From positions 1 to 61,641 of the IMG/VR virus record IMGVR_UViG_3300049893_001527: DNA of 61,641 bases; one strand, given 5' to 3'. This DNA comes from a virus. The notes under the pieces were generated by a model. It did not search any database. It had not been told where the DNA came from and worked only from the letters and a program-made list of their open reading frames with translations. The position numbers and the translations under genes were made by a program. Below, one piece after another: positions 2,890 through 47,915 of this stretch; position 1 is the stretch's first letter; each line of letters starts with the position of its first letter.

Positions 2890-3186
2890 TTATACCGCCA
2901 AAGTCATACCGATTAACATAAATACTAGGGCTAAAGCTTGTTTCATGGTAGGCTCATTCCCCAACAACACAAAAGTACCAAACCAAGTAATAGTATAAAC
3001 TAAATCAAACACTAAACTCATAGTCCATGGATTAATATTTTGCTTAGTCATCCAAGCCCAAACACTTGCGGAAAATATAGTGGAGACAAATGGCCAAGCC
3101 CAACTATATCCTTGGATAGACCAATTACTAGTTACTGAACCCGCTATACCCGCTATCGACACCAAAACTATACATAACCATATCAT
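2890..3186 (-). CDS. Small integral membrane protein (three to four helices)
   Basis: 98 residues, almost entirely hydrophobic, with predicted membrane segments near residues 1-20, 28-45, 54-75 and 80-97. The pattern is like one half of an EamA/SMR-type drug-metabolite transporter, for example the final ALALVFMLIGMTLAV helix, but no decisive motif was seen. It overlaps the groEL-like gene by 4 nt, so it is co-expressed with the chaperonin. It might be an inner-membrane accessory protein; transport is only a guess. Confidence 0.6.
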   Translation of the reverse strand: MIWLCIVLVSIAGIAGSVTSNWSIQGYSWAWPFVSTIFSASVWAWMTKQNINPWTMSLVFDLVYTITWFGTFVLLGNEPTMKQALALVFMLIGMTLAV

Positions 3187-4907
3187 TGCATACCCGCCAA
3201 ATCCACCATCGCACTCGCTTCGCTTCGCTCTAAGATTTCATCTCTAGGGAAAACTATTGCCCCACCCAAAGTACCCAACAACGCCGCAATAGATATACTA
3301 TTACGGATAGCTTCGGCTACAGCAGGCATTGAATCCACTACGCCTAATTGTTCGACTGTACCAAATTCTCGACGCAATGCGTCATAAACCTTATCGTGGT
3401 TTATAATTTCCGACATTACGTGTTCTATGTCATTGGTAGTACAACCAGTATTTAATAACAATACCTCAACTGGTTCTTGGAATGCCTTAGCCAATATTTC
3501 TGTCGCTGGCCCCTTATCGGCTAATTCATTAAACAAAAGGTCCGATAATTTCAACAACATCCAGCCACCACCGGGTAATACCCCAAACTTAATAGCACCC
3601 CGGACAGCACAAGCCGCATCTTCCGCTCGGTCGCGCTTTTCCCTGACTTCTCCGGTACTTGGCCCACTAATGGTTAGTTTGGCAATACCACCACTTAGCT
3701 TCCCTATACGTTCTTTTAGTATAGTTTCTTCCAACATAGAGCCCTGACCTAATTGGGCCTTTAGTTCTTCTACTCTATTTATTACTGCATTGGAATCAGA
3801 ATGACCTACGACATTTGACCGATAGCGGCTAGCTTCAAAATAATCCAACTTTGGCCCTAATTGTTCCAAAGTGCCTCGTTCCATTGGATTACCCAATGCG
3901 TCAAAGATTTTACTACCGGTTACTGCTGCCAAATCTTCTAATACATTTTGTAGGCCAGAATGTATTGGTGACTTTGGAATTACCATTGGGTAAACTCTAA
4001 TGGTTTCACCACGGTCTGCCGCAGTCCAATTAGCTGCCAAATTACCTAATACTGTTTCACTAAAATCAAAAGCTACCAAAACTACATTTTTAATCGCATC
4101 GGAGTCCCCGGATTCAAACTTAGATCCAATTTGATGCATTAATGGCAAAATCATAGACATATCTGTAATCGAACCGAAAAATAGTACGAATACAGGGGAT
4201 TCCAGATATACCCGTTGGTTAGTCTTATCGTTTACGAAAACGCTATAAAATCTCTTACAAGCATCTTCGTAACCAGAATTCAAAGGATAGCCCTTTAGTA
4301 GTTCAACTTCGTATCCACTAGGGCCAGATTTTTCAGTTAGGGTGACATTACCGTCATCCCCAGCCAAATCAAAACATTTCATTATAGCTGTAGCCAGTTC
4401 GGTATCACCGTTGGCTGAACAAGTGGCTACTTGTTTTAATAAAGTAGGATTAGGAGTCAGAACAGATTGCTCAATTTGAGGCAAAATGTGTTCTTTGAAT
4501 AGGGATTCTAGTTCTCTAACCACACGTTGAGGGGAATATTGTGGGTGTGCTTGACAGAATTCGTGTGTGTGGCGTACTATGGCTTCTGCCAAAATGGTTG
4601 CGGTAGTGGTGCCGTCCCCGGCTTCTTGGGCTGTACGGACAGCAGCATCCCTAGCAGCTTCCATTATGGCATGACGCACCGCGTCTTGAAATCCCAAAGC
4701 TTTAAATACAGTTACACCATCCTTGGTAATAAGGTTAGGTAAACCGTATTCTTGTCGCTCTATTAATACTTGTGATCCACCCGGTCCTAGAGTAGATCCT
4801 ACTATGGTAGATATATCCTTCATAGTAGATAATACTTTTTCTGCTAATATTTTCCCTTTAGGGAGGGTAATTTTAGAAACTGATTTAACTTTCTTATAAG
4901 AAGTCAT
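3183..4907 (-). CDS. GroEL-like group I chaperonin
   Basis: 574 residues (GroEL is about 548). Equatorial ATP-site motifs are present: STLGPGGSQVLI (about 38-49), TKDGVTVFKAL (61-71), AGDGTTTATILAEAI (96-110) and VLPGGGW near the C-terminal equatorial half. The apical region is divergent, and the usual GGM-repeat tail is missing. Phage chaperonins of this sort (for example phage EL) fold phage proteins. It is the first gene of the minus-strand operon, about 143 nt downstream of a perfect sigma70 promoter, with an AAAGGA site before the ATG. A GroES-like gene lies at 8234-8659, so the phage may carry a matched pair. Confidence 0.95.
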   Translation of the reverse strand: MTSYKKVKSVSKITLPKGKILAEKVLSTMKDISTIVGSTLGPGGSQVLIERQEYGLPNLITKDGVTVFKALGFQDAVRHAIMEAARDAAVRTAQEAGDGTTTATILAEAIVRHTHEFCQAHPQYSPQRVVRELESLFKEHILPQIEQSVLTPNPTLLKQVATCSANGDTELATAIMKCFDLAGDDGNVTLTEKSGPSGYEVELLKGYPLNSGYEDACKRFYSVFVNDKTNQRVYLESPVFVLFFGSITDMSMILPLMHQIGSKFESGDSDAIKNVVLVAFDFSETVLGNLAANWTAADRGETIRVYPMVIPKSPIHSGLQNVLEDLAAVTGSKIFDALGNPMERGTLEQLGPKLDYFEASRYRSNVVGHSDSNAVINRVEELKAQLGQGSMLEETILKERIGKLSGGIAKLTISGPSTGEVREKRDRAEDAACAVRGAIKFGVLPGGGWMLLKLSDLLFNELADKGPATEILAKAFQEPVEVLLLNTGCTTNDIEHVMSEIINHDKVYDALRREFGTVEQLGVVDSMPAVAEAIRNSISIAALLGTLGGAIVFPRDEILERSEASAMVDLAGMQ

Positions 4908-9644: not shown

Positions 9645-9937
9645 AGGAAGTCCGTGCTCAACTTAGGGAATTCACTAAACTTACCGGTGGGTTACACGAA
9701 TACCAAGTACAACACTTAAAAATGTGGCCTTTGGTGTTTTTTGGGTATAATGAGTCAGAATGTCATTTCGATTATGAAGCCAAAGAACTAACGTTTTTCT
9801 TAGCCAAAAACCAAGAAAACCTCGCTAAACGCATTATGGCGGTTCGTTTTAAAGAATTTGTTAAAGCAATTAAAGAATTAATAGGGGATTACAAAGTAAT
9901 AGTTCGTACCAACAAGAAAGTATTGTATGAGTCCTGA
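9605..9937 (+). CDS. Hypothetical protein, 110 residues
   Basis: Starts at the ATG at 9605 behind an AAGGAG site and overlaps the end of the SbcD-like gene by 40 nt. The sequence is mixed alpha/beta (HFDYEAKELTFFLA in the middle, basic helix KEFVKAIKELIGDYKVIVR at the end) with no recognised motif. Sitting between the nuclease and terminase genes it is part of the same transcript. Confidence 0.75.
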   Translation: METGTESDKLVRVKEVRAQLREFTKLTGGLHEYQVQHLKMWPLVFFGYNESECHFDYEAKELTFFLAKNQENLAKRIMAVRFKEFVKAIKELIGDYKVIVRTNKKVLYES

Positions 9938-10505
9938 TATTGAGTCCTTATTAACGGTAGAAGAACAGCAAGCATTGCTGAAATGGCGAGCAAATACCAA
10001 TTTGCGACCAATACCGGTGGCTAATGCTTTACAATTATATCAATTGTATTTAAATGGTTATAGTTGTAAAGATATATATAGATTAAATGATGAATCCTTG
10101 CCATTAGGGTCGATAGTGGATGCACGTATTCGTCACGAATGGGACCGCCGCAAGGATGAACACTTAAAGCAATTATACGATACGATTTCCGACAAAGTAT
10201 TAAAAACTCAAATGGAATCAGCGGCATTTTTGGCAGATTCCCTAAGTGCAGCCCACGTAGAACACGGGACAAAATTTAAGAAATACCTTCAAACACACAA
10301 TCCCGAATTCATAGAACAAATAGGCATACATTCCCTAAAGGAATATCGGGAAACCCTTAATGCTTTAACTAATTTAGTAAATAAGCAAACTGCTAAAATA
10401 GAAAAAGAATCCCCAGCCGTCAAAGAGTTGCCGGTCAAGGAACAGCCAGTTGAGCTTGACAACGAAGCTGCGCTTAAGTTATTGGAATCATTAGAGAATA
10501 AGTAA
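9927..10505 (+). CDS. Putative small terminase subunit
   Basis: 192 residues placed directly before the large terminase and overlapping it by one base. The N-terminal third has a helix-turn-helix-like stretch (ANALQLYQLYLNGYSCKDI, about residues 32-50) as in TerS DNA-binding domains; the middle is helical, suited to oligomerisation, and the C-terminus is a charged KE/PV-rich tail. The assignment rests mainly on position, size and architecture. Confidence 0.6.
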   Translation: MSPDIESLLTVEEQQALLKWRANTNLRPIPVANALQLYQLYLNGYSCKDIYRLNDESLPLGSIVDARIRHEWDRRKDEHLKQLYDTISDKVLKTQMESAAFLADSLSAAHVEHGTKFKKYLQTHNPEFIEQIGIHSLKEYRETLNALTNLVNKQTAKIEKESPAVKELPVKEQPVELDNEAALKLLESLENK

Positions 10506-12409
10506 TGGATGATATAGAACGGACAAAACGCAAGGCTTTATTCGTCCCTTGCCAATCCAAGGATTCATTAAAAAGATGGATTAAGATATATTTAGGTCTA
10601 GATATACCCGATACCATACTTTGCGATGACGACACCACTACGCCACCATCCAATTCTAGCCCCATGGATTTATTATGGGAAATATATCATAAGGCATTGG
10701 ATGGTAAAGACGAAGATTTCCAAACAGTTTTGGCTTACGCTGCCCGGGACTCTTATAAAACATTGTCGGCTGCCGTAATGGAAGTGCTTTGTTTGTTCCA
10801 CTTAAGACGTAGCGTAGCCCACATGGCGGCTATTGAATCCCAAGCGGCCAAAGCGGTACAATATGTAGATAAGTTTTTGCGTAGACCGATTTTGAGGGAT
10901 TTCGTTACTTCCAACAACAAAAGAACGGTTGAAATAACTCGTTACGACCACGTTAACTTTAAATATCCTACTTTATCTAAAGCTGAATACGATGCGTTAG
11001 ATATTAGCAAAAAGGGTAGTTATACCGCACATTCTTACTACATTAAAGTAGTTATAGCTACTATGGCTGGTGCGAACTCAGAACACGTACCTTTTATGGT
11101 TTTGGACGAATTAGACTTGGCCCCACCCAAGCCAGTAGAAGAAGCACAAATGATTCCGTCACAGGGGGAAAATGGGGAAGTCCCTATTACTTTAATGATT
11201 TCCAGCCGTAAATTCGCCTTCGGCTTAGTACAGAAAGCATTAGACGAGGCTGAATCAAAGAAAACTATAGTTAGGCATTGGAACTTATTGGATGTAACCA
11301 AAAAGTGTGAACCAACCAGACACCTACCCGAAGAACCTAAAATACCTATATATTATAATGAAAATACTTTAGCGGCTATTAATGAGGCAGATTTTAAGTT
11401 ATTATCACCAGAAACCCAATCAAAATATAAAAAAGCCGAAGGTTTTGCTGGATGCTTAAAGAATTGCTCGTTATTTGCTAGCTGTAAAGGTCGATTAGCC
11501 ACTAAGCCGGTAGGAGATTCTAAATTATATAAGTCTGTAGCGGTTACCAAAGGGGTGTTCCATAAAGTAACAGCAGAAACCGCTAAAGCCCAATTACTTT
11601 GTTGGAAACCATCTAGTGAAGGCTTGATTTACCCCCACTTTGACCGTACCAAACACGTAGTTAGGGCTAGGGCTATGGCGGAACTTATTACAGGAGAACT
11701 ACCGAAAAGCCCATTTTTTAGTAAAGCAGATTTAATTAATTTAATGAAAGCTAGGGGTATGTCTTTTCATTTAGGCATGGACTTCGGCTTTACACACAAT
11801 TTCGCTACAGTTTTAGCGGGTTTAGATGGTCACCGGTTATTTATATTTGACGTACAAGCTGTGGCTGGATTAGAATTAAATGAAAAAATAGGTATTTGTA
11901 AGCCATATTTGGATTATGACCCCACAGTTTATCCAGACCCCGCTTACCCTAGCGACATTAAATCATTTCGCAGGGCTGGCTTTAGGTGTAAGACTTTTAC
12001 CAAAGATATATTAGCTGGAATTGACTCAGTACGTATTAAATTAATGCCGGGTGGTGGCAAAGAACCAGAACTATTTATATTAGGTGGTGACGAAGGTTGT
12101 GAACTATTAGTAGATCGTGTATCAAAATACCATTGGGTATTGGATGATGCGGGTAGGCCAACTGACGTACCAGACGATTCTTTAGATGACGAAGTTGACG
12201 CATTGCGTTATTTGTGTCAAAATTTGTTCGGTCCTAAAGGGAAACCGGTAGCTGCCAGTATTAATCAAACCACCATTACCCAATCCGGGGAATCTACCGT
12301 AATCACTAGGGATAATTGGATGGTGGAGCGTATTAGGACTTTGACGGATGGAAATAGCACTTCAAATATAATAAAAGGCAAGAAGGGCTCCTTTATATTT
12401 GAGGTATAA
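10505..12409 (+). CDS. terL: Terminase large subunit (packaging ATPase-nuclease)
   Basis: 634 residues. The ATPase domain has a Walker A-type AARDSYKTLSA (79-89) and Walker B PFMVLDELDLA (196-206) followed by a coupling motif LMISS. A cysteine set (Cys317, Cys321, Cys327, Cys366) suggests a zinc-bound insertion. The nuclease domain opens with HLGMDFGFTHNFA (Asp426) and ends with SLDDEVDALRYL, giving the RNase H-like acidic residues. It packages DNA through the portal encoded at 13418-15298. A degenerate relative of its ATPase domain is encoded in the tRNA island (48304-48798). Confidence 0.95.
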   Translation: MDDIERTKRKALFVPCQSKDSLKRWIKIYLGLDIPDTILCDDDTTTPPSNSSPMDLLWEIYHKALDGKDEDFQTVLAYAARDSYKTLSAAVMEVLCLFHLRRSVAHMAAIESQAAKAVQYVDKFLRRPILRDFVTSNNKRTVEITRYDHVNFKYPTLSKAEYDALDISKKGSYTAHSYYIKVVIATMAGANSEHVPFMVLDELDLAPPKPVEEAQMIPSQGENGEVPITLMISSRKFAFGLVQKALDEAESKKTIVRHWNLLDVTKKCEPTRHLPEEPKIPIYYNENTLAAINEADFKLLSPETQSKYKKAEGFAGCLKNCSLFASCKGRLATKPVGDSKLYKSVAVTKGVFHKVTAETAKAQLLCWKPSSEGLIYPHFDRTKHVVRARAMAELITGELPKSPFFSKADLINLMKARGMSFHLGMDFGFTHNFATVLAGLDGHRLFIFDVQAVAGLELNEKIGICKPYLDYDPTVYPDPAYPSDIKSFRRAGFRCKTFTKDILAGIDSVRIKLMPGGGKEPELFILGGDEGCELLVDRVSKYHWVLDDAGRPTDVPDDSLDDEVDALRYLCQNLFGPKGKPVAASINQTTITQSGESTVITRDNWMVERIRTLTDGNSTSNIIKGKKGSFIFEV

Positions 12410-13417: not shown

Positions 13418-15298
13418 ATGGCTAAAACATTACAAGACCAAATAGACGAGGGCTTCAAGCCTAAGCCAGTTAATGTCAAATTTAGCTGGTTAGATCATAA
13501 TGATTTAGCTAAGGCAGAAGAAAAGCATGAGTCCCTAGAAAAGTCGGTGCTGAATTCTTTGGATTCCCTTAAAAGAGGGGAAAAGATACACCGTATAGCG
13601 GTAATGGAAGACCCTAGTAATAGGAATTTCCAAACCTTATGGAAGCCAAAGCGTAATTTATTACCGGACGATGTTTTAAAAAAAATATCGGTACAGGACT
13701 CATTGGTTTCAGCTATTTGGATGGCTAGGGCCAACCATTTAACGGTATTTGGTAGAGAATTACAAGACCGTTTTAGTTTAGGTTATATATTAATGCCTCG
13801 TAAGGGGGTTATGGAAAAGGCTACGGATTCTCAAAAGGAAGAATTGCGTAGTAGAATTAAAAATGCGACTAAGTTGTTGGGGACTTGTGGGTTTACCGAA
13901 GGTTGGTCTAGGGGAGAACAAGAATCCCTACCGGTTTATTTATATAAACAAGCCAAAAATGCATTAATCAATGGTCGATTTGCTACAGAAATCATATATA
14001 CCCGTAAAATGGATGGAACTAGGGTATTTCATGCTTTTAGGTCAGTTGATGCAGGTACAATATATAAAACGGTTCCTAAACTAGAAGCAATAGACCGTAT
14101 TAGACAACAAGCATTGAGTCATTTGCAATCCATCAAGAATGAAAAGTTACAGCCAGAACGTTTCCAAAATGATGAATATGCCTACGTTGAAGTAATAGAA
14201 AACCAACCTAGACAAGCGTTTACGGAAGACGAAATGGTCGTTTGGGATATGTATCCAGTTACGGACTACGAACTTAACGGCTACCCTATTACACCAATTG
14301 ATACAGTAATAAATGATGTAGTAACACACATTAATATAACTACTTATAATAAGTTATATTTCCAAAATGGTCGTGCCGCTAGGGGTATGATTGTAATCAA
14401 GTCTACAGACATATCACCTGATTTGATTACTCAGATCCGTAATCACATGACGGCTAGCATTAATAATGTAAATAACTCTTTCCGAGTACCTGTATTTGGT
14501 GTAGACGTAGAGGATGAAATTAGTTGGCAACCATTTGAGGGCCAAGGTGCCCGGGACATGGAATTCGAGTATTTGTATGATAATAATGCTAGGGCAATAT
14601 TGTCGGCTTTCCAAATTTCCCCTGACGAATTACCGGGTTACAGCCATTTGTCTAAAGGAACCAATAACCAAGCTTTATCAGAATCAAGCAACGAATACAA
14701 AATGGAAGCGGCCCGGGACGTAGGTATTAGACCGCTTTTGCTAAAGTTCCAAGATTTCTTTAATGAAGTAATTATACCTTTAATTGACCCAGTTTTGGCT
14801 CAATTGTGTGTATTGAAGTTTGCTGGCTTGGATGCGGATACAGCCGAAAAGGAATCAACTAGGCTAGCTCAAGACCAACAACTACACATGGATTACGATG
14901 AAATCCGCCTACACGTTGAAAAGGAGCCAGTAGGACAAGAATGGGGTGGTAGGTTCCCACTAAATGCAGCTTATCAAGCTGTTTTGGATAAATATTGGAC
15001 TGTAGGACAAATAAAAGAACACTTCTTTGGTCAAGTGGGGGCCAGCAAAGACCCTAAGTGGGATTATGTAAGAGATCCATTCTGGTTCCAATACCAACAA
15101 CTATTACAAGCTAAAGAGCAAATGGCCCAACAGCAACAACAACAACAAATGCAACAGCAACAAATGCAACAGCCACCCGAAGGTGAGGGGGACCAACCAC
15201 CCGAAGGTGAGGGCGAAGGCCAACCACCCGAGGGTGAATCAGAAATAGCCCAAAAAGCAGACCAAGTGGCACAATTATTAGGTGGAAACAATGGCTAA
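13418..15298 (+). CDS. Portal protein
   Basis: 626 residues. The portal core is seen in the stem/wing region: VINDVVTHINITTYNKLYFQNGRAARG, then EFEYLYDNNARAILSAFQISPDELPGY, and the later RPLLLKFQDFFNEVIIPLID. The C-terminus has a polyglutamine/methionine run followed by three PPEGEG-type repeats, a disordered tail. It forms the dodecameric ring at one capsid vertex through which terminase packages DNA. Starts 2 nt after the previous gene; overlaps the protease gene by 8 nt. Confidence 0.92.
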   Translation: MAKTLQDQIDEGFKPKPVNVKFSWLDHNDLAKAEEKHESLEKSVLNSLDSLKRGEKIHRIAVMEDPSNRNFQTLWKPKRNLLPDDVLKKISVQDSLVSAIWMARANHLTVFGRELQDRFSLGYILMPRKGVMEKATDSQKEELRSRIKNATKLLGTCGFTEGWSRGEQESLPVYLYKQAKNALINGRFATEIIYTRKMDGTRVFHAFRSVDAGTIYKTVPKLEAIDRIRQQALSHLQSIKNEKLQPERFQNDEYAYVEVIENQPRQAFTEDEMVVWDMYPVTDYELNGYPITPIDTVINDVVTHINITTYNKLYFQNGRAARGMIVIKSTDISPDLITQIRNHMTASINNVNNSFRVPVFGVDVEDEISWQPFEGQGARDMEFEYLYDNNARAILSAFQISPDELPGYSHLSKGTNNQALSESSNEYKMEAARDVGIRPLLLKFQDFFNEVIIPLIDPVLAQLCVLKFAGLDADTAEKESTRLAQDQQLHMDYDEIRLHVEKEPVGQEWGGRFPLNAAYQAVLDKYWTVGQIKEHFFGQVGASKDPKWDYVRDPFWFQYQQLLQAKEQMAQQQQQQQMQQQQMQQPPEGEGDQPPEGEGEGQPPEGESEIAQKADQVAQLLGGNNG

Positions 15299-17471
15299 AG
15301 CAATGGTAATAGACGGTATTGCGGCATCTGAGGCTATAGATAGCTCTGGTGAAATATTGTCTGTTGCCGGATTAGATATTTCTGATTTGGAAGCTGGGCT
15401 AGGAGTATTAAATTACGAACACCGTTCCGAAAAGGATGGTGGTGCATCTAGCAATGATATTATTGGGGCTATTACATACGCCAAGAAAATATTTAAACCA
15501 GAAGATTGTGAAAATCCCCGTCAAAGGATGTATTGGGATAAAATTGAATTACCGTTCGTTTATATTACGGCAGAACTATTTAATGGGGAAGATCATACCG
15601 GGGCCAAAGCCGCCGCTAGTTTAATTAGGTATTACCACCGTAGACACCTACCAATATTAATGCGTTTTAGTATTGAGGGTTCTACAATAGAACGCGAAGG
15701 TAATTTCTTAAAAAGAAGTGTAGCCCGTAGAGTAGCGGCTACCCTAAAGCCTTGTAATAGAAGCTGCATTTCGGGTGTTTTGGAAGATGCAGATGACGTT
15801 AGTTCTTTAGATGAATTGGTTAGGGGGGATTTGCCAACTACCCAAATCAAAAAGTCGGTAGTATATGAATTTGATGCCTTGGTAAAGGATGAAGCCGAAC
15901 TATTGGCCGATAAGTTGGAAAACTTCAAGGAAATCAAATACTTAAACGAGCTACTAATGAAATACAATGTAGCTCCAACACAACTTAATGGTTATAGTGC
16001 ATTACAAACAGAATGGGTTGACGGGAAATCCAAGAAAAAGAAAAAGTTAATAGATACCTATAAGAAATGGGCCCGTAAGGAACCCCTAGAAAAATTCATA
16101 AACCAAGAACACCCGGACGTACCGGCGGACTTGGTTAAATATTTCCTAGATGGGATAGAATCCTACCATAATGGACAAACCGAGTTATTGTATGCCGCGT
16201 TGCATCAATTGAAGCCAAAGTCTGTTTTGATTAAGAACCTAGGGGATTTGTTGGCAAAATTTAACCAATTAGTTAAAACAGTTGGCCCAACTGAAACCAC
16301 CCCTAAAATCCAAACAGACAAACACGGATTACAGGAATTGTCTAAACCAGACGCAGCGGTCCCCGGTAAAATCAAAGTCCATACTGGCCCCTACGCTGGG
16401 AGTGTGCTACACTACCACGGGCCAGACGACCGGGACGGTCATGTTTGTAGTAAAGACCCTGACTCTCATAAGTTTATAATAGACGAAGACCATAAAGTAG
16501 AAATATTAGAACATCCAATTAAACCAGTATTAAGGCATCAAGTACACGGTATAGAACACGCGGTATTCGATAATAATACACCCGAACAAACTAATTTAAT
16601 ACACGGGTTAATATTGAATCCAGACCATCGAGAATACCAACAAGACCGTAGTTTTAGTTCTGGTGGCCTTATCTTTGATCGTTTGGGACAAATGGTTGAC
16701 CCCGGCAAAAGTATTAATGGCAAGCATATTAATCCGTTGACCGGTAAGGCTGTATTTATTAAATCTGATTGGATATCTGATTGGACAGATCCTATTATGG
16801 ATGATTTAAATAGGGTTGCAGCAACTTTGCCAATACCTAAAGCTGAACAAATACACCATGACGCAGCGCATCATTTTTGGGGTACTGGTGCATTGTATCC
16901 AACCTTAACCGCTTTTAAACATCCAGATCATAATTATGTTTCAAAACACTTTGCTGCTTCCGAATTTGTGCCCGGTGAAGAATTGTTTTCCGCAGAACGC
17001 ACACCAGAATTCCAAAATTGGAGATGGAAACCCGAAAACGATGAACTATTAAAGCGTCATATGGTATCTGAAATGATAATGGGGAACACAGATCGTCATG
17101 CCGGTAACATGATTTGGGACAAGGACAGTCAAAAGCTGCATATGATTGATAACGGCTTTATGAATGAACACGCATTATCAACACCGTATTTCTTGCAATT
17201 ATCGGAAATGGACCATGGTTTGCCACAATCAATTAGACAATGGTTACACCAATTAGATTTTAGCAAATTAGATAAATTATTACAAGACCGCCAACTACCA
17301 GACCATTTAAGACGCCAAGTAATGCACCATGCATTGAACGTACAATCCAAGGCAATGCAACCAGTACCTTTGTTATGGCGGGACTTGGTAAATCCAAGAT
17401 TTGACCCCGGTGTGGCGCAGCCAACCAAAGAATCAACCCCTGACGATAGACCATTTAAAAGAAGAAGATAA
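15291..17471 (+). CDS. Prohead protease fused to a HipA/PI3K-like kinase domain
   Basis: 726 residues from the ATG at 15291 (AGGTGG site just upstream). The N-terminal 180 residues match prohead serine proteases: DSSGEILSVAG, a catalytic-type His in LNYEHRSEK (about residue 44), IIGAITYAKKIF, and MRFSIEGS with the likely Ser (about 127). A charged linker follows. The C-terminal 250 residues look like an atypical kinase: VFIKSDW (about 488, possible ATP lysine), MGNTDRHAGNMIWD (about 597, catalytic loop DRHxxN) and MIDNG (about 618, metal-binding Asp). Protease position after portal is canonical; the fused kinase is not. Confidence 0.8.
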   Translation: MAKAMVIDGIAASEAIDSSGEILSVAGLDISDLEAGLGVLNYEHRSEKDGGASSNDIIGAITYAKKIFKPEDCENPRQRMYWDKIELPFVYITAELFNGEDHTGAKAAASLIRYYHRRHLPILMRFSIEGSTIEREGNFLKRSVARRVAATLKPCNRSCISGVLEDADDVSSLDELVRGDLPTTQIKKSVVYEFDALVKDEAELLADKLENFKEIKYLNELLMKYNVAPTQLNGYSALQTEWVDGKSKKKKKLIDTYKKWARKEPLEKFINQEHPDVPADLVKYFLDGIESYHNGQTELLYAALHQLKPKSVLIKNLGDLLAKFNQLVKTVGPTETTPKIQTDKHGLQELSKPDAAVPGKIKVHTGPYAGSVLHYHGPDDRDGHVCSKDPDSHKFIIDEDHKVEILEHPIKPVLRHQVHGIEHAVFDNNTPEQTNLIHGLILNPDHREYQQDRSFSSGGLIFDRLGQMVDPGKSINGKHINPLTGKAVFIKSDWISDWTDPIMDDLNRVAATLPIPKAEQIHHDAAHHFWGTGALYPTLTAFKHPDHNYVSKHFAASEFVPGEELFSAERTPEFQNWRWKPENDELLKRHMVSEMIMGNTDRHAGNMIWDKDSQKLHMIDNGFMNEHALSTPYFLQLSEMDHGLPQSIRQWLHQLDFSKLDKLLQDRQLPDHLRRQVMHHALNVQSKAMQPVPLLWRDLVNPRFDPGVAQPTKESTPDDRPFKRRR

Positions 17472-17921
17472 ATGCTAAATAATATTTTAAGAATCTATGC
17501 TTTAAGGTTTAAGGGGCAAGACCACTATTGGGTACTTGCTGGCAAGGTATTTTTGGACCAACCCAATAAGAAATTAGTATGGTTGGAAGACCATACTGAC
17601 ATAAAATCCTTGTTGGGAGACAGCTTGGACGATACATTTATCAGACGTATCAATTCAATGAATGCCAATGGTAGATTTAAAGTAGTGCCAGAATCCCATT
17701 TACACGTATATCATCCAGAAGCCCTACCTAGACACGATTTAGGGGATTCTGCGCCAGACCATAAGTTCAAAGTAATTGGGCCCGACATAAATGTCATAGT
17801 AGAATTCCATGGCCCCAATGCGGTAATTAACGGGAAAAAGGTATCTGAGGAAGAATTAAAGCCCATAACAGATAAATTAAATAGCGGTGAATATCATTTG
17901 GAGCCATTAAATGCCGTATAA
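17472..17921 (+). CDS. Hypothetical head-block protein, 149 residues
   Basis: Follows the protease-kinase gene with no gap and overlaps the next gene by 11 nt. It begins with a compact beta-rich region (YWVLAGKVFLDQPNKKLVWLEDH) and ends with a helical acidic segment. No motif recognised. Coupling to its neighbours suggests a virion or assembly role. Confidence 0.7.
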   Translation: MLNNILRIYALRFKGQDHYWVLAGKVFLDQPNKKLVWLEDHTDIKSLLGDSLDDTFIRRINSMNANGRFKVVPESHLHVYHPEALPRHDLGDSAPDHKFKVIGPDINVIVEFHGPNAVINGKKVSEEELKPITDKLNSGEYHLEPLNAV

Positions 17922-18450
17922 TCCAGATTCCCATACCCCAATGGAACGCCATGCTTTGTATTCCGATTCGGACATACATGGTTTAGGCAATAAATTGGCT
18001 TATGAACTACACACCCAAAGAGCTAACAACACAGGTATTTGGGTCCATATTAAGCCATTATCTGAAACGGTCCCTAATGGGAAATATATAGCCAAACTAA
18101 GTCAAGCGCATAATGGGCATGGATTTAGGTTTAAAGGCAATGATTTTAGGGTATGGTTTCCTAGCACTAAAGAATCGCATCGTTTTACTAGAGCGTATCG
18201 GGCTAGTAAATTACAAGGCCAACACGCTATAGGTATGGGGCATAATGCGAACCAAGCAGAACAATCTCAAATTATAGCAACGGCTGCCTTAAAAGAACCT
18301 AATCACACTAGTATTAAGGCGTTATTAAAGGAAAAGCCCGCAGATTGGTCTGAGGGTAAATCCCACAATGCCATACACCATGAGCCAAAACCACATGATT
18401 TTGGGCTTAATTTAGCTAATCCTTTAAAGAAGCCTGATACAGACGATTAG
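17911..18450 (+). CDS. Hypothetical head-block protein, 179 residues
   Basis: A His- and Asn-rich basic protein (HGLGNKLAYELHTQRANN, GHGFRFKGNDFRVWF) with a disordered proline/lysine-rich end. No family recognised. Its 3' end overlaps by 35 nt the 3' end of the oppositely oriented zinc protein, a convergent arrangement. Confidence 0.68.
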   Translation: MPYNPDSHTPMERHALYSDSDIHGLGNKLAYELHTQRANNTGIWVHIKPLSETVPNGKYIAKLSQAHNGHGFRFKGNDFRVWFPSTKESHRFTRAYRASKLQGQHAIGMGHNANQAEQSQIIATAALKEPNHTSIKALLKEKPADWSEGKSHNAIHHEPKPHDFGLNLANPLKKPDTDD

Positions 18451-18754
18451 CTATTTGTTTACATTTAATACAAATACCGCGGTCTTTATAAAAAGAAGTG
18501 TTATGCAATAAAATTTCGTGGCATTTATTGCACTCCTTAAGACCTTGTTGGGCATTACATTTTTTGCATATATTATTAGAATTTAATGGTTTATGTATTT
18601 TGCAGTTTTGGCATTGTGGATAACGGTGTTTGAAGCGGTATTGTTTAAAACATTGTATACACCATAATTGCACAGGGCGTTCAGTAGTTAAGGATTCGTG
18701 GTATTTGGTTCTAGGCAACAACTGGTTGCAATTTAAGCAAAGATAAGTGTCCAT
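18416..18754 (-). CDS. Multi-zinc-ribbon protein on the opposite strand
   Basis: 112 residues with about seven CxxC-type pairs (CLNC, CIQC, CQNC, CKKC, CNKC, CIKC) spaced through the whole protein, plus many Lys and His. It resembles the zinc-cluster proteins often inserted as solitary genes in phages, some related to homing endonucleases, but no HNH or GIY-YIG core is visible. It is the only minus-strand gene in the head block, convergent with its neighbour. A GAATCTAC element lies exactly 13 nt before its ATG on its own strand, hinting at an independent leaderless transcript. Confidence 0.75.
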   Translation of the reverse strand: MDTYLCLNCNQLLPRTKYHESLTTERPVQLWCIQCFKQYRFKHRYPQCQNCKIHKPLNSNNICKKCNAQQGLKECNKCHEILLHNTSFYKDRGICIKCKQIANRLYQASLKD

Positions 18755-21781: not shown

Positions 21782-21808
21782 CACGATATAAAGGATTTGG
21801 AGCATAAA

Positions 21809-22621
21809 ATGGCAAAACTACGTAAAGATGATGAAACCGCAGCAAGCGCACCAGCGCCAGAAGAAACTTCTAGCCCTGCGCCAATGGATACTGATGGTCC
21901 AGATGCTTCTTTGGAAGGATCTGATGAAGTAGAACCATCTACAGCTAGTGATGCCGGGGCAGACCCGTCCGCGTCCGAAGATGCGGCCCTAGGGGACGCG
22001 GGCGAAGGCGTAGCCGGTGACGACACCGCTGCATTAGTTCAAGCTCTAAGTGCATTGCCACCAGAAAAGCTAGAACAATTAGTTAATGCTATAGAACAAG
22101 TAATTATGTCTAAGGGTGGTGAAGCGGGTGGTGAAACCGCACCAGTAGACGGTCAAGGCGATGCGGGCCAAGCTGCTTCACCGCCAGCCGAAGCCGGTGC
22201 AGAACCCGGGCCAGTAGGACAGGATGCAGGCCAATTAGCACCAGAAATGGGTGCCCCACCAGAAATGCCACCAGAAGAACAACTAGCTCAATCCGAAAAG
22301 GTTGTTCCAAGCGAAGCTTTAGTAAAGTCAGAAGCTAAAGTTGCTGAATTAGAAAAAGCTGTTGGTGATCTAATTGGCACTTTGGAATCAGTATTGACAC
22401 AACCAGTACGTAAGGCTGGAAAAGAATTAGCTAAGGCAGAAAAGCCAGCCATGCCAAAGTTCTCTGAATTAAATAAATCAGAACAAACTAAAGCTCTAAC
22501 TGGTTTATCACGCAATCCGTCACTAACCAAATTCGAACGTTCTAAGATCAATGACTTCGTGTTGTCTAAGTCAGTTTCTATCAATGAGATAGAATCAATC
22601 TATGAAAAGTATAACAAATAA
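21809..22621 (+). CDS. Acidic scaffold-like protein
   Basis: 270 residues from the ATG at 21809 (GGAG at 21799-21802). The first two thirds are Ala/Glu/Pro/Gly-rich and highly acidic, with hardly any fold; the last third is a basic helical region (KAVGDLIGTLESVLTQPVRKAG and LNKSEQTKALTGLS). An acidic disordered protein immediately upstream of the major capsid gene is the usual profile of a scaffolding/core protein. It has its own late-type element and the capsid gene follows after 18 nt. Confidence 0.68.
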   Translation: MAKLRKDDETAASAPAPEETSSPAPMDTDGPDASLEGSDEVEPSTASDAGADPSASEDAALGDAGEGVAGDDTAALVQALSALPPEKLEQLVNAIEQVIMSKGGEAGGETAPVDGQGDAGQAASPPAEAGAEPGPVGQDAGQLAPEMGAPPEMPPEEQLAQSEKVVPSEALVKSEAKVAELEKAVGDLIGTLESVLTQPVRKAGKELAKAEKPAMPKFSELNKSEQTKALTGLSRNPSLTKFERSKINDFVLSKSVSINEIESIYEKYNK

Positions 22622-22639: not shown

Positions 22640-24049
22640 ATGTCACAATTAGCGGAAAAACTAGAATCACTAGCAAAGGCTCTTGAAGCCGGTGGTTACA
22701 ATGCTGTACCTACCACCTTGACTCAAGGTTCAGCATTACAAGTAGAAGATTGTTCTCCTGTAATGTATAATGTTACCTTCAACGACAAGCACATTAAGCT
22801 ACAAAAGGCTTTGAATGTCAAGTCAGTCAAGTCAGTATTCATTCAATTCAACCGTCGTCTAAGCTACGGTCAATTCGGTGGTTCAGCCCAAATTGAAGGT
22901 GCAGTAGGGCAAGAACAAACTAGCGATTTCGTCCGTGTAGGCGTACCAATGGCATTCTACTCAGAACTACGTAGAACTACATTGGTATCAAACATGGTAA
23001 AGACCCAATCCGGTGAAAAGCCAGAAGACTTGGAAGCCGAAGCCGCAGCACTAAGAATTGCTGCCGACATTGAATTCGACTTGTTCCGCGGTAAGGCCGA
23101 TTTCAGCAATGCAGGGGTATTCGATGGTAACCCTAATGCTGTACCTCCACTACCAAACATGATGGGGGTAGACCTACAAATCCGTCAATCCGACCTACAA
23201 ACCAATACCCAAGACCTAATGTTTGAATCATTTAGCTCTGGTTTGTCAGTTGTATTAAACGGTGGTGGTGTTTTGACTCAACCTATAATCGAAGACGCCT
23301 CAGTACGTTCTGCGATTAACCACGGTTCAGCCGATACCCTATATATCGACCCACTTGTACTAAGTGCGTACAACAAATTAGCATACGCCAACAAGGAACG
23401 CATTGTATTAGCTGGCAGCCCACAAACCGCTGTAGGCGCAGACGTACAACGTCAATGGGTTTCCGGTGGTACTGTAAAGACCGAAGCTAGCAGATTCCTA
23501 AGCGGAAAGACTCAACCAATCCGCGCACGCGCTATCGGTCCTGCGACCCCGCTTGTTCCAACCTCTGCCCAAAACGCTTCTAGCACTACTTTCGTAGCTG
23601 CTCAAGTATACAACTACTACACTACGCAAGAAAACGAAATCGGTGAAAGCTCTCGCAGCCCAGCCCTAGCAGTAACGATTTTGGTTAACGGAAACAACGT
23701 TGTTCTTTCTGGTGCCTCAATTGCTCCAACCAGCAAAATAATGAACGTTTACCGTTCTGCTGCTGGTGGTACTGCCGCAAGTGCTAAGTTTATCGGTCGT
23801 GTAGCTACTAACGGTTCAGCTACCCCAGCATTTACCGACCTAAACAACAAAGTACCGGGATTCGTAACTGGATTCTTGCTACAAGATGACACAATGGAAA
23901 TCGCTGAATTAGCTCCATACTCAAGAATGAAGATGGCGGTTGCCGATTTGTCAGAACCAGAAGCGCATTTTAGATTCTGCTGCCTAAAGGTTACTGAACC
24001 TCGCAAGAACGTTCTAGTAGACAACCTAAAGGGTGACCAAAGCTTCTAA
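22640..24049 (+). CDS. Major capsid protein with an Ig/FN3-like insertion
   Basis: 469 residues behind a TAGGAG site. Codons are strongly biased (CTA, GTA, CGT, AAG) compared with the neighbours, and a strong terminator follows, as expected for the most abundant virion protein. The N-terminal half fits HK97-fold capsids (VFIQFNRRLSYGQFGGSAQ, SELRRTTLVSNMVKTQSG, FDLFRGKADF). Residues about 315-420 read like a fibronectin-III/Ig-like surface domain (YNYYTTQENEIGESSRSPA, KIMNVYRSAAGGT). It forms the capsid shell. Confidence 0.9.
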   Translation: MSQLAEKLESLAKALEAGGYNAVPTTLTQGSALQVEDCSPVMYNVTFNDKHIKLQKALNVKSVKSVFIQFNRRLSYGQFGGSAQIEGAVGQEQTSDFVRVGVPMAFYSELRRTTLVSNMVKTQSGEKPEDLEAEAAALRIAADIEFDLFRGKADFSNAGVFDGNPNAVPPLPNMMGVDLQIRQSDLQTNTQDLMFESFSSGLSVVLNGGGVLTQPIIEDASVRSAINHGSADTLYIDPLVLSAYNKLAYANKERIVLAGSPQTAVGADVQRQWVSGGTVKTEASRFLSGKTQPIRARAIGPATPLVPTSAQNASSTTFVAAQVYNYYTTQENEIGESSRSPALAVTILVNGNNVVLSGASIAPTSKIMNVYRSAAGGTAASAKFIGRVATNGSATPAFTDLNNKVPGFVTGFLLQDDTMEIAELAPYSRMKMAVADLSEPEAHFRFCCLKVTEPRKNVLVDNLKGDQSF

Positions 24050-27346: not shown

Positions 27347-28189
27347 ATGGCTGATTATACAGATTCCGCACTATTAGACCAATCGTTATATCCAGAAAAC
27401 GCTATAGATGCCCAAGAATGGTCTAGGGTTGAACCATTATTGACGGCAGAACAGCTTAAACGTCGGTTTTTGTGGGGTATACCATTGGTTTCCCCTATTC
27501 GTGACCCTATTACGGGTAAAGCCGATACAATGACTAGTGAAGACCTTAAAGAATTTGTTTTAAGGGCTGTTGCACAAGTTGAACTAGACACGGGGATAGA
27601 CGTATTCCCGGTACAACGCTCCGAAGGCCAAGATTTTGACCGTAACCTATTAGTACAATACGGCCACCTTAGATTAGACCATCGTCCTATTGTATCAATA
27701 GATAAGTTATCTATTAAACCAGCCAGCGGGGACGATATTTATATAGTACCGCCAGAATGGATTGACCACAAGTATTTCACCAAGGGGTTATTGCACATAA
27801 TCCCACTAATGCCAGCTATTAATTCTGGTGTTATCCCTACTGGTCGTAGTGGTGGTACTATGTTTTTGCATATTATTGCTGGTGGTAGACAATGGGTTCC
27901 TAGTTATTGGAATATAGAATACACGACTGGCTTCAAAGACGGTATTTTGCCTAAAGTATTAAATGAATTAATTGGTTGTTATGCGGCTGTTGACATATTG
28001 ACTGTATTGCAATCAACTTATAGGTCTACTAGCTATTCTCTAGGGGTTGACGGTATTAGCCAATCTGGTTCTACACCGGGTCCAAATATGTTCGACCCTA
28101 GGATTAAGCAATTAGAACTCAAGAAAAAGCAATTGCTAGGTAAGTTTAAAGCGTTATTCCAAAATAAATTCATAGTGAGTAATATTTAA
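27347..28189 (+). CDS. Head-tail adaptor-like protein
   Basis: 280 residues. The segment LKEFVLRAVAQVELDTGIDVFPVQ, followed by beta strands and the ending YRSTSYSLGVDGISQSGSTPG with a lysine-rich helix, fits the phage head-tail connector (adaptor) proteins that contact the portal. Gene position after the small virion gene supports this. Its stop overlaps the next ATG. Confidence 0.65.
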   Translation: MADYTDSALLDQSLYPENAIDAQEWSRVEPLLTAEQLKRRFLWGIPLVSPIRDPITGKADTMTSEDLKEFVLRAVAQVELDTGIDVFPVQRSEGQDFDRNLLVQYGHLRLDHRPIVSIDKLSIKPASGDDIYIVPPEWIDHKYFTKGLLHIIPLMPAINSGVIPTGRSGGTMFLHIIAGGRQWVPSYWNIEYTTGFKDGILPKVLNELIGCYAAVDILTVLQSTYRSTSYSLGVDGISQSGSTPGPNMFDPRIKQLELKKKQLLGKFKALFQNKFIVSNI

Positions 28190-30096
28190 TGGCAGACCAA
28201 TCAGAACCACTAGAAAAAGCTGCGCCGCACATAGCGGCTTTCTTGGCTGCTGCCCAATTATTTACCGCCAAACCACACAAAACGGAACCGGCGGCTCCAA
28301 AAGTTGCAGCTACTAAGCAATCAGCTAAATCTACCCCCAAGCCCCTACCCTATGGGCCACACTTGCCGACTACTAACTCCGAGCGGGTAGCCCAGCCGTT
28401 CCCTGTATCCGCCGAACTGACCCAAGGCTTGCCGTCTGAAATGCATCCTATCATGCATTTGGAGTCCCGTAACGGACAAAACCAAAACCACGCTGTAGTA
28501 AATAATAATAAATGGCAAACAGCGCACGGACACCTAGGTTTTATGCCGTTTACCGCCCACGAACGTTATATGAAAAATCCGTCTATGCGGACAATGTTCC
28601 CGGGTTTGGAATCGGCAGATAAGTTTTATAAAACATTTACTACTAATGTTAATTTTTATAATACTTTAGCATATTTACATTGGGATTATTTAGGGAAGCG
28701 TTTAGGTAATAATTTGTCAAGAATGGCTTATGGTTGGCGTTTGGGCGAGGGGGCAGCTAAGAAAGCCGATGACCAAACAGCGCAATCCCATTCTTATGTA
28801 AAAGGATATCACGCCCATGCCCAAAATATTCAACCTCAACCAACGGTTACCAAACAAGCGCCTATTAAGAAATCTGAACCAATAGATGAATTTGCAGTTA
28901 AGTTTAAACAATGGATTTATAAAAAGCGCAAAAAGCTAAAGAAATCCGCTACTTACGATAATCTTATGGGTGATATTACGGATTTAGACCGTAAGATGGC
29001 CCGTAAGATGATTGGTAATGAAATATTAGATACACCAGAATTCAAGTCTGCTAGGTTTTTGGCTAAGGAATCCACCCCTAAAGCCAATCGCCTACAAGAC
29101 GCTTTGGCCATTTACGAACACAACCACATATTAGCTGCTTTGTATGCTTATGGGCTGCCTACCAACGATGAATTTGTGGCTAAAATTCAATCAATTATGC
29201 AATTGAGGGTAGGAGAACTAACTAAGGCTGCCGCCGAATACCAAGTCAAGCCCTTAAACATAGAATCCCGCGAAATCGCTGAATACCTACAAGAATCCTT
29301 TAATACTGGCCAATTTGAATCAGTACACTTAAAGGGTAAATATAATGAAGGTTCTATGATTGTAGTTAACAATAGAACACACAACAAATGGCTATTAAAG
29401 CCAGATCAACCACACAACTCGCCAGCTTCCGGGGTAGATCAAGAACCCATTGGGCAATCTCGTAGGGAAGTAATTAATTCCAAGGTAGCTGAACTATTAG
29501 GGATAGGGAATTTCGTAGTTAGTTCAGACTTGGTAGATATAAATGGAAAAGAATATGCTGCGATGGAATTCTTCAATTCCGATTATTCTGGTTTACACAC
29601 AAGAATGACCAATGGTGAAGATATAAAGAACATATTAGAGCCATATAGGGCCAGCGGGTTGTTATTTAAGTGGGCCTTTATGGATTATATATTAGGTAAT
29701 ACGGATCGGCACGGCATGAACGTAATGGCTGATTCTTACGGTAACATTAAATTAATAGACCATGGAAGTTCATTAGCTGGGGATGAATTTGACCCAGCCA
29801 ATGACCCTAATTCATTTATACCATATTATTTACGAGCATATTCCGTACACGACAACTTTAGGGATTTGTCACCACATGACCGTTATCACAGGTTCCCTAA
29901 AGGCAATTACCAATTAGAGCATGAATTCGCGCAATTTGTTCAAAGTGTAAGTGTGGAAGCTATTTGGCAAGTCCTACATAATTATGGGGCCAAAACCGAA
30001 GCCGTAACGCATCGCGTCAAAGAATTAAAGTCAATTCCACCAGAACACGTATTGAGTTATCTATTGGAAATATGGGCCGGTATAGTGGACCCGTAA
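28189..30096 (+). CDS. Lytic-transglycosylase-like region fused to a HipA/PI3K-like kinase domain
   Basis: 635 residues. After a disordered start, residues about 85-200 resemble a lysozyme/SLT domain: HPIMHLESRNGQNQNHA (a candidate catalytic Glu at about 93), GHLGFMPFTAHERYMKN and MAYGWRLGEG. A lysine-rich linker follows. The C-terminal 250 residues carry an atypical kinase set: KWLLKPDQP (about 399, ATP lysine), YILGNTDRHGMNVMAD (about 500, DRHxxN loop) and KLIDHGSS (about 521, metal Asp). It shares this domain with the protease-kinase protein at 15291-17471. A virion-injected enzyme acting on cell wall and then on a host target is possible but inferred. Confidence 0.68.
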   Translation: MADQSEPLEKAAPHIAAFLAAAQLFTAKPHKTEPAAPKVAATKQSAKSTPKPLPYGPHLPTTNSERVAQPFPVSAELTQGLPSEMHPIMHLESRNGQNQNHAVVNNNKWQTAHGHLGFMPFTAHERYMKNPSMRTMFPGLESADKFYKTFTTNVNFYNTLAYLHWDYLGKRLGNNLSRMAYGWRLGEGAAKKADDQTAQSHSYVKGYHAHAQNIQPQPTVTKQAPIKKSEPIDEFAVKFKQWIYKKRKKLKKSATYDNLMGDITDLDRKMARKMIGNEILDTPEFKSARFLAKESTPKANRLQDALAIYEHNHILAALYAYGLPTNDEFVAKIQSIMQLRVGELTKAAAEYQVKPLNIESREIAEYLQESFNTGQFESVHLKGKYNEGSMIVVNNRTHNKWLLKPDQPHNSPASGVDQEPIGQSRREVINSKVAELLGIGNFVVSSDLVDINGKEYAAMEFFNSDYSGLHTRMTNGEDIKNILEPYRASGLLFKWAFMDYILGNTDRHGMNVMADSYGNIKLIDHGSSLAGDEFDPANDPNSFIPYYLRAYSVHDNFRDLSPHDRYHRFPKGNYQLEHEFAQFVQSVSVEAIWQVLHNYGAKTEAVTHRVKELKSIPPEHVLSYLLEIWAGIVDP

Positions 30097-44429: not shown

Positions 44430-44489
44430 GGTTGTGTTGGCGCGGTTGGCAGCAAGAACCGCTACAACGGTGAAAACTGAATAGCAAGT

Positions 44490-44562
44490 GCATTGTGATG
44501 CGATTGGTATCGCAGTTACGCTGTCTACGTAATGAAAGCGGGTTCGATTCCCCTACAATGCG
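44490..44562 (+). tRNA. tRNA-Asp(GTC)
   Basis: Acceptor GCATTGT/ACAATGC, anticodon stem TTACG/CGTAA around loop CTGTCTA. The T stem has one C-C mismatch. No CCA is encoded, as in the rest of the island. Confidence 0.85.
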
Positions 44563-44572
44563 TGTGTTTTAT

Positions 44573-44643
44573 GCGCGTATCGTCTAATGGCAAGACTGGA
44601 GCCTCCAAAACTCTTAACGTGGGTTCGATTCCTACTGCGCGCG
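44573..44643 (+). tRNA. tRNA-Trp(CCA)
   Basis: Acceptor GCGCGTA/TGCGCGC, D stem GTCT/AGAC, anticodon loop CTCCAAA, T arm GTGGG-TTCGATT-CCTAC. Confidence 0.85.
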
Positions 44644-44764
44644 TTTTTGGGTCGTATAAAGTGTAACAAATACGCTCTTAGCAAATGGTTTGACAAATGT
44701 CAAACAAATACTAGGGGAGATATTGGTCGTCCTATTTCGGACAATCCAATCCCAAAATTATTAC

Positions 44765-44848
44765 AGGGGTATAGTCTAATTGGCAAGACAGCGGGCTTTG
44801 ACCCCGCCGGGCGGAAGCCCATTCTAGGTTCGAATCCTAGTACCCCTT
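44765..44848 (+). tRNA. tRNA with anticodon TTG (Gln) but a long variable arm
   Basis: Acceptor AGGGGTA/TACCCCT, D stem GTCT/AGAC, anticodon stem GCGGG/CCCGC with loop CTTTGAC. The A1-U72 pair suits Gln. The variable region is 16 nt with a GGGC-GGAA-GCCC stem, a size normally found only in Leu, Ser and Tyr tRNAs. Confidence 0.8.
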
Positions 44849-44850
44849 TT

Positions 44851-45249
44851 ATGAAACTACTAGTAACTGGTGACCGTAATTATACTAATTATAGTATAGT
44901 ATACGAAACAATTAAAATAATACAACCAACATTAGTAATACATGGTGCTTGTAAAGGGCTGGATTTGTTGGCTGATAAAGCCGCTAAAGCATTATGTATT
45001 AAAACACATTCAGAACCGGCCAAATGGGACACTTATAAGAAAGCGGCTGGTCCTATTAGAAATCGGGTTATGTTGGAAATGAAACCGGATTTAGTAGTTG
45101 GTTTTCACGATAATATAGCGTCATCGAGTGGCACAAAGGATATGTTGACAGCAGCCATCAACGCTGGTACAGTTGTCTGGCTGGTGCAACGAGGATTGTA
45201 TTACCCGCTTAAATCCATACCGGATTTAGTAGACCTAATGGTGGAATAA
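44851..45249 (+). CDS. SLOG-superfamily (DUF2493-like) protein
   Basis: 132 residues from ATG 44851, directly after the tRNA. MKLLVTGDRNYTNYSIVYETI is the YspA/DUF2493 SLOG opening (GDRxYT, nucleotide-type Rossmann), followed by VIHGACKGLDLLADKAAK, NRVMLEMKPDLVVGFHDN and a glycine-rich turn. SLOG domains bind nucleotides or nucleotide-derived signals; some sense ADP-ribose-type ligands in defence. Role here is unknown. Confidence 0.85.
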   Translation: MKLLVTGDRNYTNYSIVYETIKIIQPTLVIHGACKGLDLLADKAAKALCIKTHSEPAKWDTYKKAAGPIRNRVMLEMKPDLVVGFHDNIASSSGTKDMLTAAINAGTVVWLVQRGLYYPLKSIPDLVDLMVE

Positions 45250-45387
45250 ATGTTAGAAATCCATACCTATTATTTGGTTTTTGATTTTGTTCAAAAACCG
45301 GAACTTTCAACTAATGAGGTTTGGTATCAAATTCGATTGATTCATCAAAAGTATCCAGTTAAAATACAAACCGCTAAAGCAGAATAA
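45250..45387 (+). CDS. Small hypothetical protein, 45 residues
   Basis: ATG immediately follows the SLOG stop (TAAATG). Translation MLEIHTYYLVFDFVQKPELS and on to a lysine-rich end. Short and unrecognised, but coupled and bounded by a tRNA. Confidence 0.45.
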   Translation: MLEIHTYYLVFDFVQKPELSTNEVWYQIRLIHQKYPVKIQTAKAE

Positions 45388-45400
45388 ATTTAGCCTATAC

Positions 45401-45474
45401 AGGCTCATAGCTCAACTGGTTAGAGCACCTGCCTTATAAGCGGGAGGTTTCGGGTTCGAGCCCCGATGGGCCTA
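45401..45474 (+). tRNA. tRNA-Ile(TAT)
   Basis: Acceptor AGGCTCA/TGGGCCT, D stem GCTC/GAGC, anticodon stem CCTGC/GCGGG with loop CTTATAA, T stem TCGGG/CCCGA. Reads AUA, common in this genome. Confidence 0.9.
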
Positions 45475-45492
45475 ACAAACACGGAGACACAA

Positions 45493-45678
45493 ATGCTTAA
45501 TACTGGATTAAAGGCTTCTGAATTAATTAAACTTTTGCAGCAGTTTATAAAACAGCATGGTGACCAACAAGTATTTTGTGGTGGTACGGATTATCCGGGT
45601 GGAGTTAAGGATATTTTAGTAAACAAGTATGGCGATGCTTATACCCCTAAAGACGTATTTGTAATACGTCACCATTGA
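45493..45678 (+). CDS. Small hypothetical protein, 61 residues
   Basis: Starts at ATG 45493 behind GGAG. MLNTGLKASELIKLLQQFIKQ helix followed by a beta part (QQVFCGGTDYPGGVKDILV). Many phages carry related small proteins, but I could not name this one. Confidence 0.6.
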   Translation: MLNTGLKASELIKLLQQFIKQHGDQQVFCGGTDYPGGVKDILVNKYGDAYTPKDVFVIRHH

Positions 45679-45783
45679 GCTTGAAAATGAAGCACGCTCT
45701 AGTTTGCGTAGAACCATATAACGACAACATGGTGTATGCCGTTAAGGTGCCATTTATTACACAGTTTACAAAAAGCTTTCAAT

Positions 45784-45867
45784 GGAAAGTTAGCCTAATG
45801 GTAAGGCAAAGGTTTGCTACACCTTGGGGGTGAAAACTCCTTAAGAGTTCGATTCTCTTACTTTCCG
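45784..45867 (+). tRNA. tRNA-Ser(GCT)
   Basis: Acceptor GGAAAGT/ACTTTCC, D stem GCCT/AGGC, anticodon stem AAGGT/ACCTT with loop TTGCTAC, long variable arm, T stem AAGAG/CTCTT. Confidence 0.9.
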
Positions 45868-45868
45868 C

Positions 45869-45953
45869 AGGACTAATATTAGGTATAATTATTATTACGA
45901 TTTAATGACGATTAAATACGAATAATAAGAGGGTTCAAATCCCTTGAAGTCCT
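45869..45953 (+). other. Degenerate tRNA-like element with an AT-rich nested hairpin
   Basis: The ends pair (AGGACT/AGTCCT) and a T arm (GAGGG-TTCAAAT-CCCTT) is intact, but the middle is TTATTATT...AATAATAA enclosing ATTTAAT/ATTAAAT instead of normal D and anticodon arms. Could be a decayed tRNA or an insertion into one. Confidence 0.4.
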
Positions 45954-46019: not shown

Positions 46020-46036
46020 CGTTAGAAGGAAAACAA

Positions 46037-46301: not shown

Positions 46302-46305
46302 ATGA

Positions 46306-46379: not shown

Positions 46380-46392
46380 CTAGGGTATTACA

Positions 46393-47914: not shown

Positions 47915-47915
47915 T

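Follow-up and report, generated by a model that had tools for sequence, protein, structure and literature searches.

The viral record IMGVR_UViG_3300049893_001527 (61,641 bases, referred to throughout as the window) contains a head-gene cluster in which a single uninterrupted frame of 726 codons encodes a prohead serine protease at the N-terminus and a kinase-fold domain at the C-terminus (Table 1). From comparison with related loci, we conclude that the most likely course is for the protease to take the kinase into the procapsid, where it is then released by cleavage. We favour, with some reservation, the view that the phage's own prohead maturation protease carries a PI3K/PI4K/HipA-fold kinase as a payload, which would be freed in the head and injected.

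A prohead protease and a kinase-fold domain in one reading frame

Identity to the putative prohead protease of Mx1, a Myxococcus phage, was 50.8% over residues 1-300 of the fusion protein; to SPO1-type proteases it was ~29% over residues 6-195. The first 300 residues matched the head maturation protease family phrog_1028 (E = 9.2e-05), as did 17 of the 23 aligned relatives. His44 and Ser127, which we take to be the catalytic pair of this protease family, were unchanged in all 23 aligned sequences. Homology to annotated head proteases thus identifies the N-terminus as a probable SPO1-type prohead maturation protease, in agreement with an earlier note on the window that had placed a prohead protease here. 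A short second copy of the protease domain (154 residues) was seen at L036:7013-7477, in the same record as L002/L029.

The earlier note had also described the C-terminal part as a HipA/PI3K-like kinase with a characteristic Lys and with DRHxxN and IDNG motifs, and had put forward fold prediction as a check. The residues are present (K491, DRHAGN at 601-606 and D620), and a kinase fold of PI4K/HipA type was obtained. The AlphaFold2 model (367 residues; predicted local distance difference test, pLDDT, 76.5; predicted template modelling score, pTM, 0.73) had its best matches among type II phosphatidylinositol (PI) 4-kinases (Foldseek E from 1.2e-06), with Z of 16.3-17.3 over 241-258 residues and a root-mean-square deviation of 3.9-8.7. 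HipT (Z 12.7), CtkA (12.4), PI4KIII beta (10.7) and VPS34 (~10) followed. The kinase part of the label therefore held, while the nearest fold was refined to type II PI 4-kinase. A plain HipA label was ranked after the PI4KII-like one, with HipT and CtkA second by fold Z.

In sequence profiles, the window domain scored 26.4 bits against Pfam PI3_PI4_kinase (PF00454), slightly below the cut-off of 27.1, and the same family matched 16 of 18 aligned kinase relatives at E <= 1 (best E = 7.3e-13). HipA_2 matched two of the 18 (best 0.00037) and HipA_C one (0.056). When the 18-sequence profile was searched against solved structures, mTOR, PI4KA and VPS34 were found, from E = 1.1e-05. No close relative was found when the window domain served as the only tblastn query against phage records (two records, both at E = 4), nor when viral contigs were searched with a two-sequence kinase alignment. 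Similar predicted viral folds were labelled as PI3K/PI4K, Nudix, portal or head-morphogenesis proteins; as some of these are head-protein labels, this kinase type may also be carried by head proteins elsewhere.

The catalytic residues were retained among relatives at ~20% identity: Lys491 in 16/18 sequences, Asp601 in 14/18 (two gapped, two His), Asn606 in 16/18 and Asp620 in 17/18. Ratios of nonsynonymous to synonymous substitution rates (dN/dS) were 0.015-0.174 over four pairs of relatives, resembling those of the protease (0.030-0.149), and show, at the level of sequence, that the kinase domain is under purifying selection. The C-terminal domain is accordingly modelled as a PI3/PI4 kinase fold with catalytic Lys, DRHxxN and Asp. 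This fold fits either a protein or a lipid substrate; we think a protein likelier in a bacterium. Conceivably, this domain is without kinase activity and only extends the protein as a structural or scaffold element, since the catalytic Asp is absent from two sequences, one further sequence is degenerate and the GGDEF homologue of the window is itself degenerate. Nevertheless, the retention of all four residues in most sequences and the low dN/dS make this very improbable.

Recurrence of the fusion and a constant order of modules

The fusion was followed across 35 loci, comprising 33 viral loci from a protease-alignment search (some of them near copies), Mx1 and the window. Five modules were placed with profiles built in this analysis, and five of the loci are cut by contig ends. 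The kinase was fused to the protease in 20 of the 35 loci, including that of the cultured phage Mx1, which rules out chance or an assembly artefact. Together with the retained catalytic residues and the dN/dS values, this count marks the fusion as more than a chance event. In L017, the kinase is the gene directly after the protease gene. On the protease tree, a fused or adjacent kinase required at least five changes, two of them forced by well-supported branches, suggesting that the kinase was gained or lost repeatedly.

The protease was N-terminal in all 35 loci, and the order of modules was constant throughout: protease, 8-oxoguanine-glycosylase-like, kinase, p2 (a small domain) and GGDEF. 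This count set aside a second kinase gene farther downstream in the window. Modules may be absent or sit in separate genes, and the order was kept whether they occupied one open reading frame (ORF) or several. Five loci (L013, L019, L021, L023 and L029) carried p2 and GGDEF on the protease with no kinase there, and the same series was present in L041, a bacterial metagenome contig not used for the profiles. By these sequence comparisons, the fusion is group-wide and the kinase is one of several payloads.

The glycosylase-like module, found in relatives and not in the window, was modelled at pLDDT 90. It gave no Foldseek match at E <= 0.001 and no Pfam match, and sequence searches found no solved glycosylase. 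Only a second structural aligner ranked glycosylases at the top, a queuine salvage enzyme among them; the 8-oxoguanine DNA glycosylases SsOgg and TmOgg gave Z of 14.0 (201/207) and 13.8 (207/208), respectively. In the presumed helix-hairpin-helix region of the module an Asp is invariant and a Lys nearly so, and the model points to an 8-oxoguanine-glycosylase fold. For the GGDEF module, the motif was found by script in 17 of 20 copies and by eye also in L019. The window homologue reads KGNDF at this site and should be inactive. By eye, the glycosylase-like module of L017:8267-10222 is interrupted by a long insert with an intein-like end, and inserts in the protease linker resemble GNAT in L026:7010-8200 and ParB in L030:7001-8980 and L031.

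Kinase domains of this type were not confined to the protease. The C-terminal domain of the window ORF at 28189-30096 belongs to the same type and, at 27.6 bits, passes the Pfam cut-off; the Mx1 counterpart of this second protein is annotated as a kinase. Among 18 records searched for the domain, 16 contained at least one, and 14 gave two or three matches, though fragments of a single domain may account for some of these. The N-terminal part of ORF 28189-30096 resembles a lytic transglycosylase by eye.

A peptide common to protease linker and capsid protein

The protease linker and the N-terminus of the capsid protein had a peptide of ~28 residues in common, and SPO1-type phages and P100 have it too. 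A single-sequence profile of residues 8-45 of the L011 capsid protein was searched against 2026 ORFs. It recovered 18/18 capsid proteins, the source included (E <= 2.3e-15), followed by 31/35 proteases (E 5.5e-11 to 0.013), with the next ORF at 0.13. The proteases missed were those of L017, L021, L036 and the window. The Lys of the peptide was nearly invariant among proteases, and the residue after it was mostly Ala, Ser or Thr. The same pairing was seen by eye, with lineage-specific letters and weak profile scores, in the stand-alone proteases of Goe10 (SPO1-type) and P100. This places the peptide among the older components of the head type, and outside the payload.

A candidate cleavage tetrapeptide in linkers and scaffolds

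The motif hydrophobic-x-K-[A/S/T] was counted in the linkers between modules, with expectations taken from shuffled linkers. In the linkers of 33 proteins it occurred 148 times against 50.2 expected (standard deviation 6.7; z 14.6), and 113 times against 46.6 when the shared peptide was excluded. The folded modules showed no enrichment (59 against 57.4). Replacement of the motif Lys by other residues gave no comparable excess, the highest being Gly at z 3.2. After thinning of the set, the motif remained above expectation in 25/25 proteins (118 against 38.2), and in the held-out L041 the linkers contained 5 copies against 1.75 expected (p = 0.024) and the domains 1 against 2.27. A scaffold is a protein that a maturation protease must remove, and the likely scaffold proteins contained 102 copies against 21.1 expected, about fivefold, with an excess in 14/14 loci. 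The capsid protein of phage A511 is reportedly cleaved at a Lys. The motif counts suggest that hydrophobic-x-K-[A/S/T] is likely to be the maturation cleavage site. A T4-like LxE rule, suggested at first by the ALQxE at the end of the shared peptide, was rejected; LxE reached 86 against 70.3 in linkers (z 2.0), far from the z of 14.6 above. In the portal protein of the window (13418-15298), the tetrapeptide was also in excess (6 against 1.7, p 0.006), with three copies within the first 42 residues.

The candidate sites and the shared capsid peptide lend support to the earlier proposal that the kinase is packaged and separated from the protease, so far as sequence can speak to it. The peptide could instead be only a docking signal on a protein that is never cut, so that the payload remains tied to the protease. 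The peptide by itself is no proof of cleavage, and the cut in these capsid proteins is only predicted. Against this, one tetrapeptide is specifically enriched in linkers and scaffolds, with Lys alone favoured at its third position, and we regard this alternative as unlikely.

Proposed delivery of the kinase

Packaging of the kinase and its release inside the head are accordingly well supported by sequence. In the mechanism that we propose, the capsid-like peptide and a helical segment after the protease domain would recruit the fusion to the procapsid along with the scaffold. The protease would cut the scaffold, the N-terminus of the capsid protein and its own linkers, in each case after hydrophobic-x-Lys and before Ala, Ser or Thr. 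In the window, cuts at K188 and K329 would release the kinase (residues 330-726) inside the head, from which it would exit with the DNA at infection and phosphorylate host targets early. Cleavage, retention in the head, injection and a protein rather than a lipid substrate are steps that we infer.

Several observations weigh against this mechanism. The support is computational throughout, and retention of the kinase in the mature head is a presumption. The window linkers hold just two candidate sites against 1.27 expected, which proves nothing alone, and the window's capsid-like peptide is shortened and reached only E = 22 with the probe. The relatives share ancestry and so do not count as independent, and definition of the motif followed inspection of the sequences. 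The P100 scaffold showed no enrichment (3 against 1.6). The kinases that have lost the catalytic Asp (L030 and L033, 2/18) and the degenerate one (L014) count here as well.

A different role is also possible: the kinase might act while heads are being assembled in the infected cell, with capsid, scaffold or packaging proteins among its conceivable targets, and not be delivered to the next host. It is made alongside the structural genes and tethered to an assembly enzyme, and some relatives lack it on the protease. The series, however, also contains DNA-glycosylase-like and GGDEF modules with no evident assembly role, and most of the records searched encode an additional kinase on a different protein. 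We consider a role confined to assembly rather unlikely, though less so than an uncut fusion. Delivery of the kinase remains the preferred reading. In a broader form, for which we see about even chances, the main prohead protease in a group of large phages would be the leading part of a polyprotein that cuts itself and fills the capsid with enzymes in fixed order for delivery to the host; the cuts would fall between hydrophobic-x-Lys and Ala/Ser/Thr. These enzymes would be an 8-oxoguanine-glycosylase-like protein, a PI3/4K-like kinase and a GGDEF cyclase, with modules lost or split off and the order kept.

If correct, this would give phages a simple route to load effector enzymes into the head at a set ratio, the effectors being built into the maturation protease and then cut off inside the head. 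A eukaryote-like PI3/4K-fold kinase would join the possible early weapons of phages. The cleavage rule is also a prediction for SPO1-related head proteases and can be applied to cultured phages (Mx1, SPO1-type).

Relation to known systems

One fused protein from a cultured phage is Mx1 WNM70322.1 (1239 residues), a protease-glycosylase-like-kinase fusion that differs from the window protein in carrying the glycosylase-like module. The available part of the Mx1 genome paper (PMC10720576) mentions neither the kinase nor the fusion. Full-text searches of open-licence literature, judged mostly by title or start of abstract, found no report of a kinase payload on a prohead protease.

The earlier note had regarded maturation proteases as normally stand-alone; there are examples and exceptions. 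The SPO1-type proteases Goe10 gp3.2 and P100 gp15 are homologous to the window protease, occupy the same position between the portal and scaffold/capsid genes and have a capsid-like peptide after the catalytic domain, but are payload-free at 253 and 264 residues. By contrast, SPN3US gp245 has a C-terminal extension that is cleaved, and assemblin-like peptidases occur in multidomain phage proteins (PMC10052503, PMC5512222). The gp245 protease removes its own 64-residue C-terminal propeptide as well as trimming internal head proteins (PMC10052503), and DarA of P1 is an internal head protein trimmed by the prohead protease and ejected with the DNA (PMC12810830). In these phages the cargo is a separate substrate, whereas here it is part of the protease.

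Polyvalent proteins of phages and conjugative elements are multidomain, are thought to enter with the DNA and may contain GGDEF domains (PMC5512222). The window protein resembles them in having at least two unrelated enzymatic domains in one protein of a virion gene cluster. Assemblin-like peptidases in polyvalent proteins are rare and always C-terminal (PMC5512222, section 8), whereas the main prohead protease was N-terminal in every locus here. The polyvalent-protein kinase group is described as being without the C-terminal subdomain (PMC5512222); the kinase here is PI3/4K-like. HipA, PI3K and glycosylase are not mentioned in the main text of PMC5512222. Polyvalent phage proteins are already known, and an N-terminal prohead protease with this series of payloads adds a new arrangement to them. 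Type II PI 4-kinases, HipT and CtkA share the fold and catalytic residues of the window kinase, but at 9-15% identity, and differ from it in that the window kinase is fused to a capsid protease.

Coordinates and other genes of the window

The start codon of the fusion ORF (ATG at 15291) gives an 8-base overlap with the portal gene up to its stop codon, and an alternative GTG start lies 9 bases upstream.

Table 1. Features of the head-gene cluster and of the protease-kinase fusion in the window
Feature	Position	Strand	Remark
Large terminase	10505-12409		
Portal protein	13418-15298	+	Gene preceding the fusion ORF
Protease-kinase fusion ORF, 726 residues	15291-17471	+	ATG overlaps portal stop codon
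Prohead serine protease domain	15291-15791	+	Candidate catalytic His44, Ser127
Candidate cleavage site IKK188/S	15852-15854	+	Motif match
Capsid-like peptide in protease linker (YNVAPTQLNGYSALQTE)	15963-16013	+	Shortened copy without the ALEAG part
Candidate cleavage site LVK329/T, ahead of kinase	16275-16277	+	Motif match
Small beta region and kinase domain (modelled)	16368-17468	+	
Predicted ATP-binding Lys491 of kinase	16761-16763	+	16/18 sequences
Predicted catalytic loop D601-R-H-x-x-N606 (DRHAGN)	17091-17108	+	
Predicted metal-binding Asp620 of IDNG motif	17148-17150	+	
p2, small module of 149 residues	17472-17921	+	Separate gene in window; fused in some relatives
Degenerate GGDEF homologue	17911-18450	+	GGDEF motif is KGNDF
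Likely scaffold protein	21797-22621	+	Candidate cleavage tetrapeptide 6 against 1.1 expected
Major capsid protein	22640-24049	+	phrog_752, E = 6.8e-38; shared peptide at residues 10-38
Second protein with C-terminal PI3/4K-like kinase domain	28189-30096	+	

A small Cys-rich ORF (18416-18754, minus strand) faces the head genes, and a similar ORF lies in L002 at 9929-10285. The window also encodes a Cpn60/GroEL-like chaperonin (3183-4907, minus strand; Pfam E = 2.9e-35) and, at 44489-53986, a transfer-messenger RNA (tag DADMALAAA) with 22 tRNA genes. In L038 (Mx1 24404-60000), the annotation places TROVE-domain, VWA-domain and RNA ligase genes near many tRNA genes.

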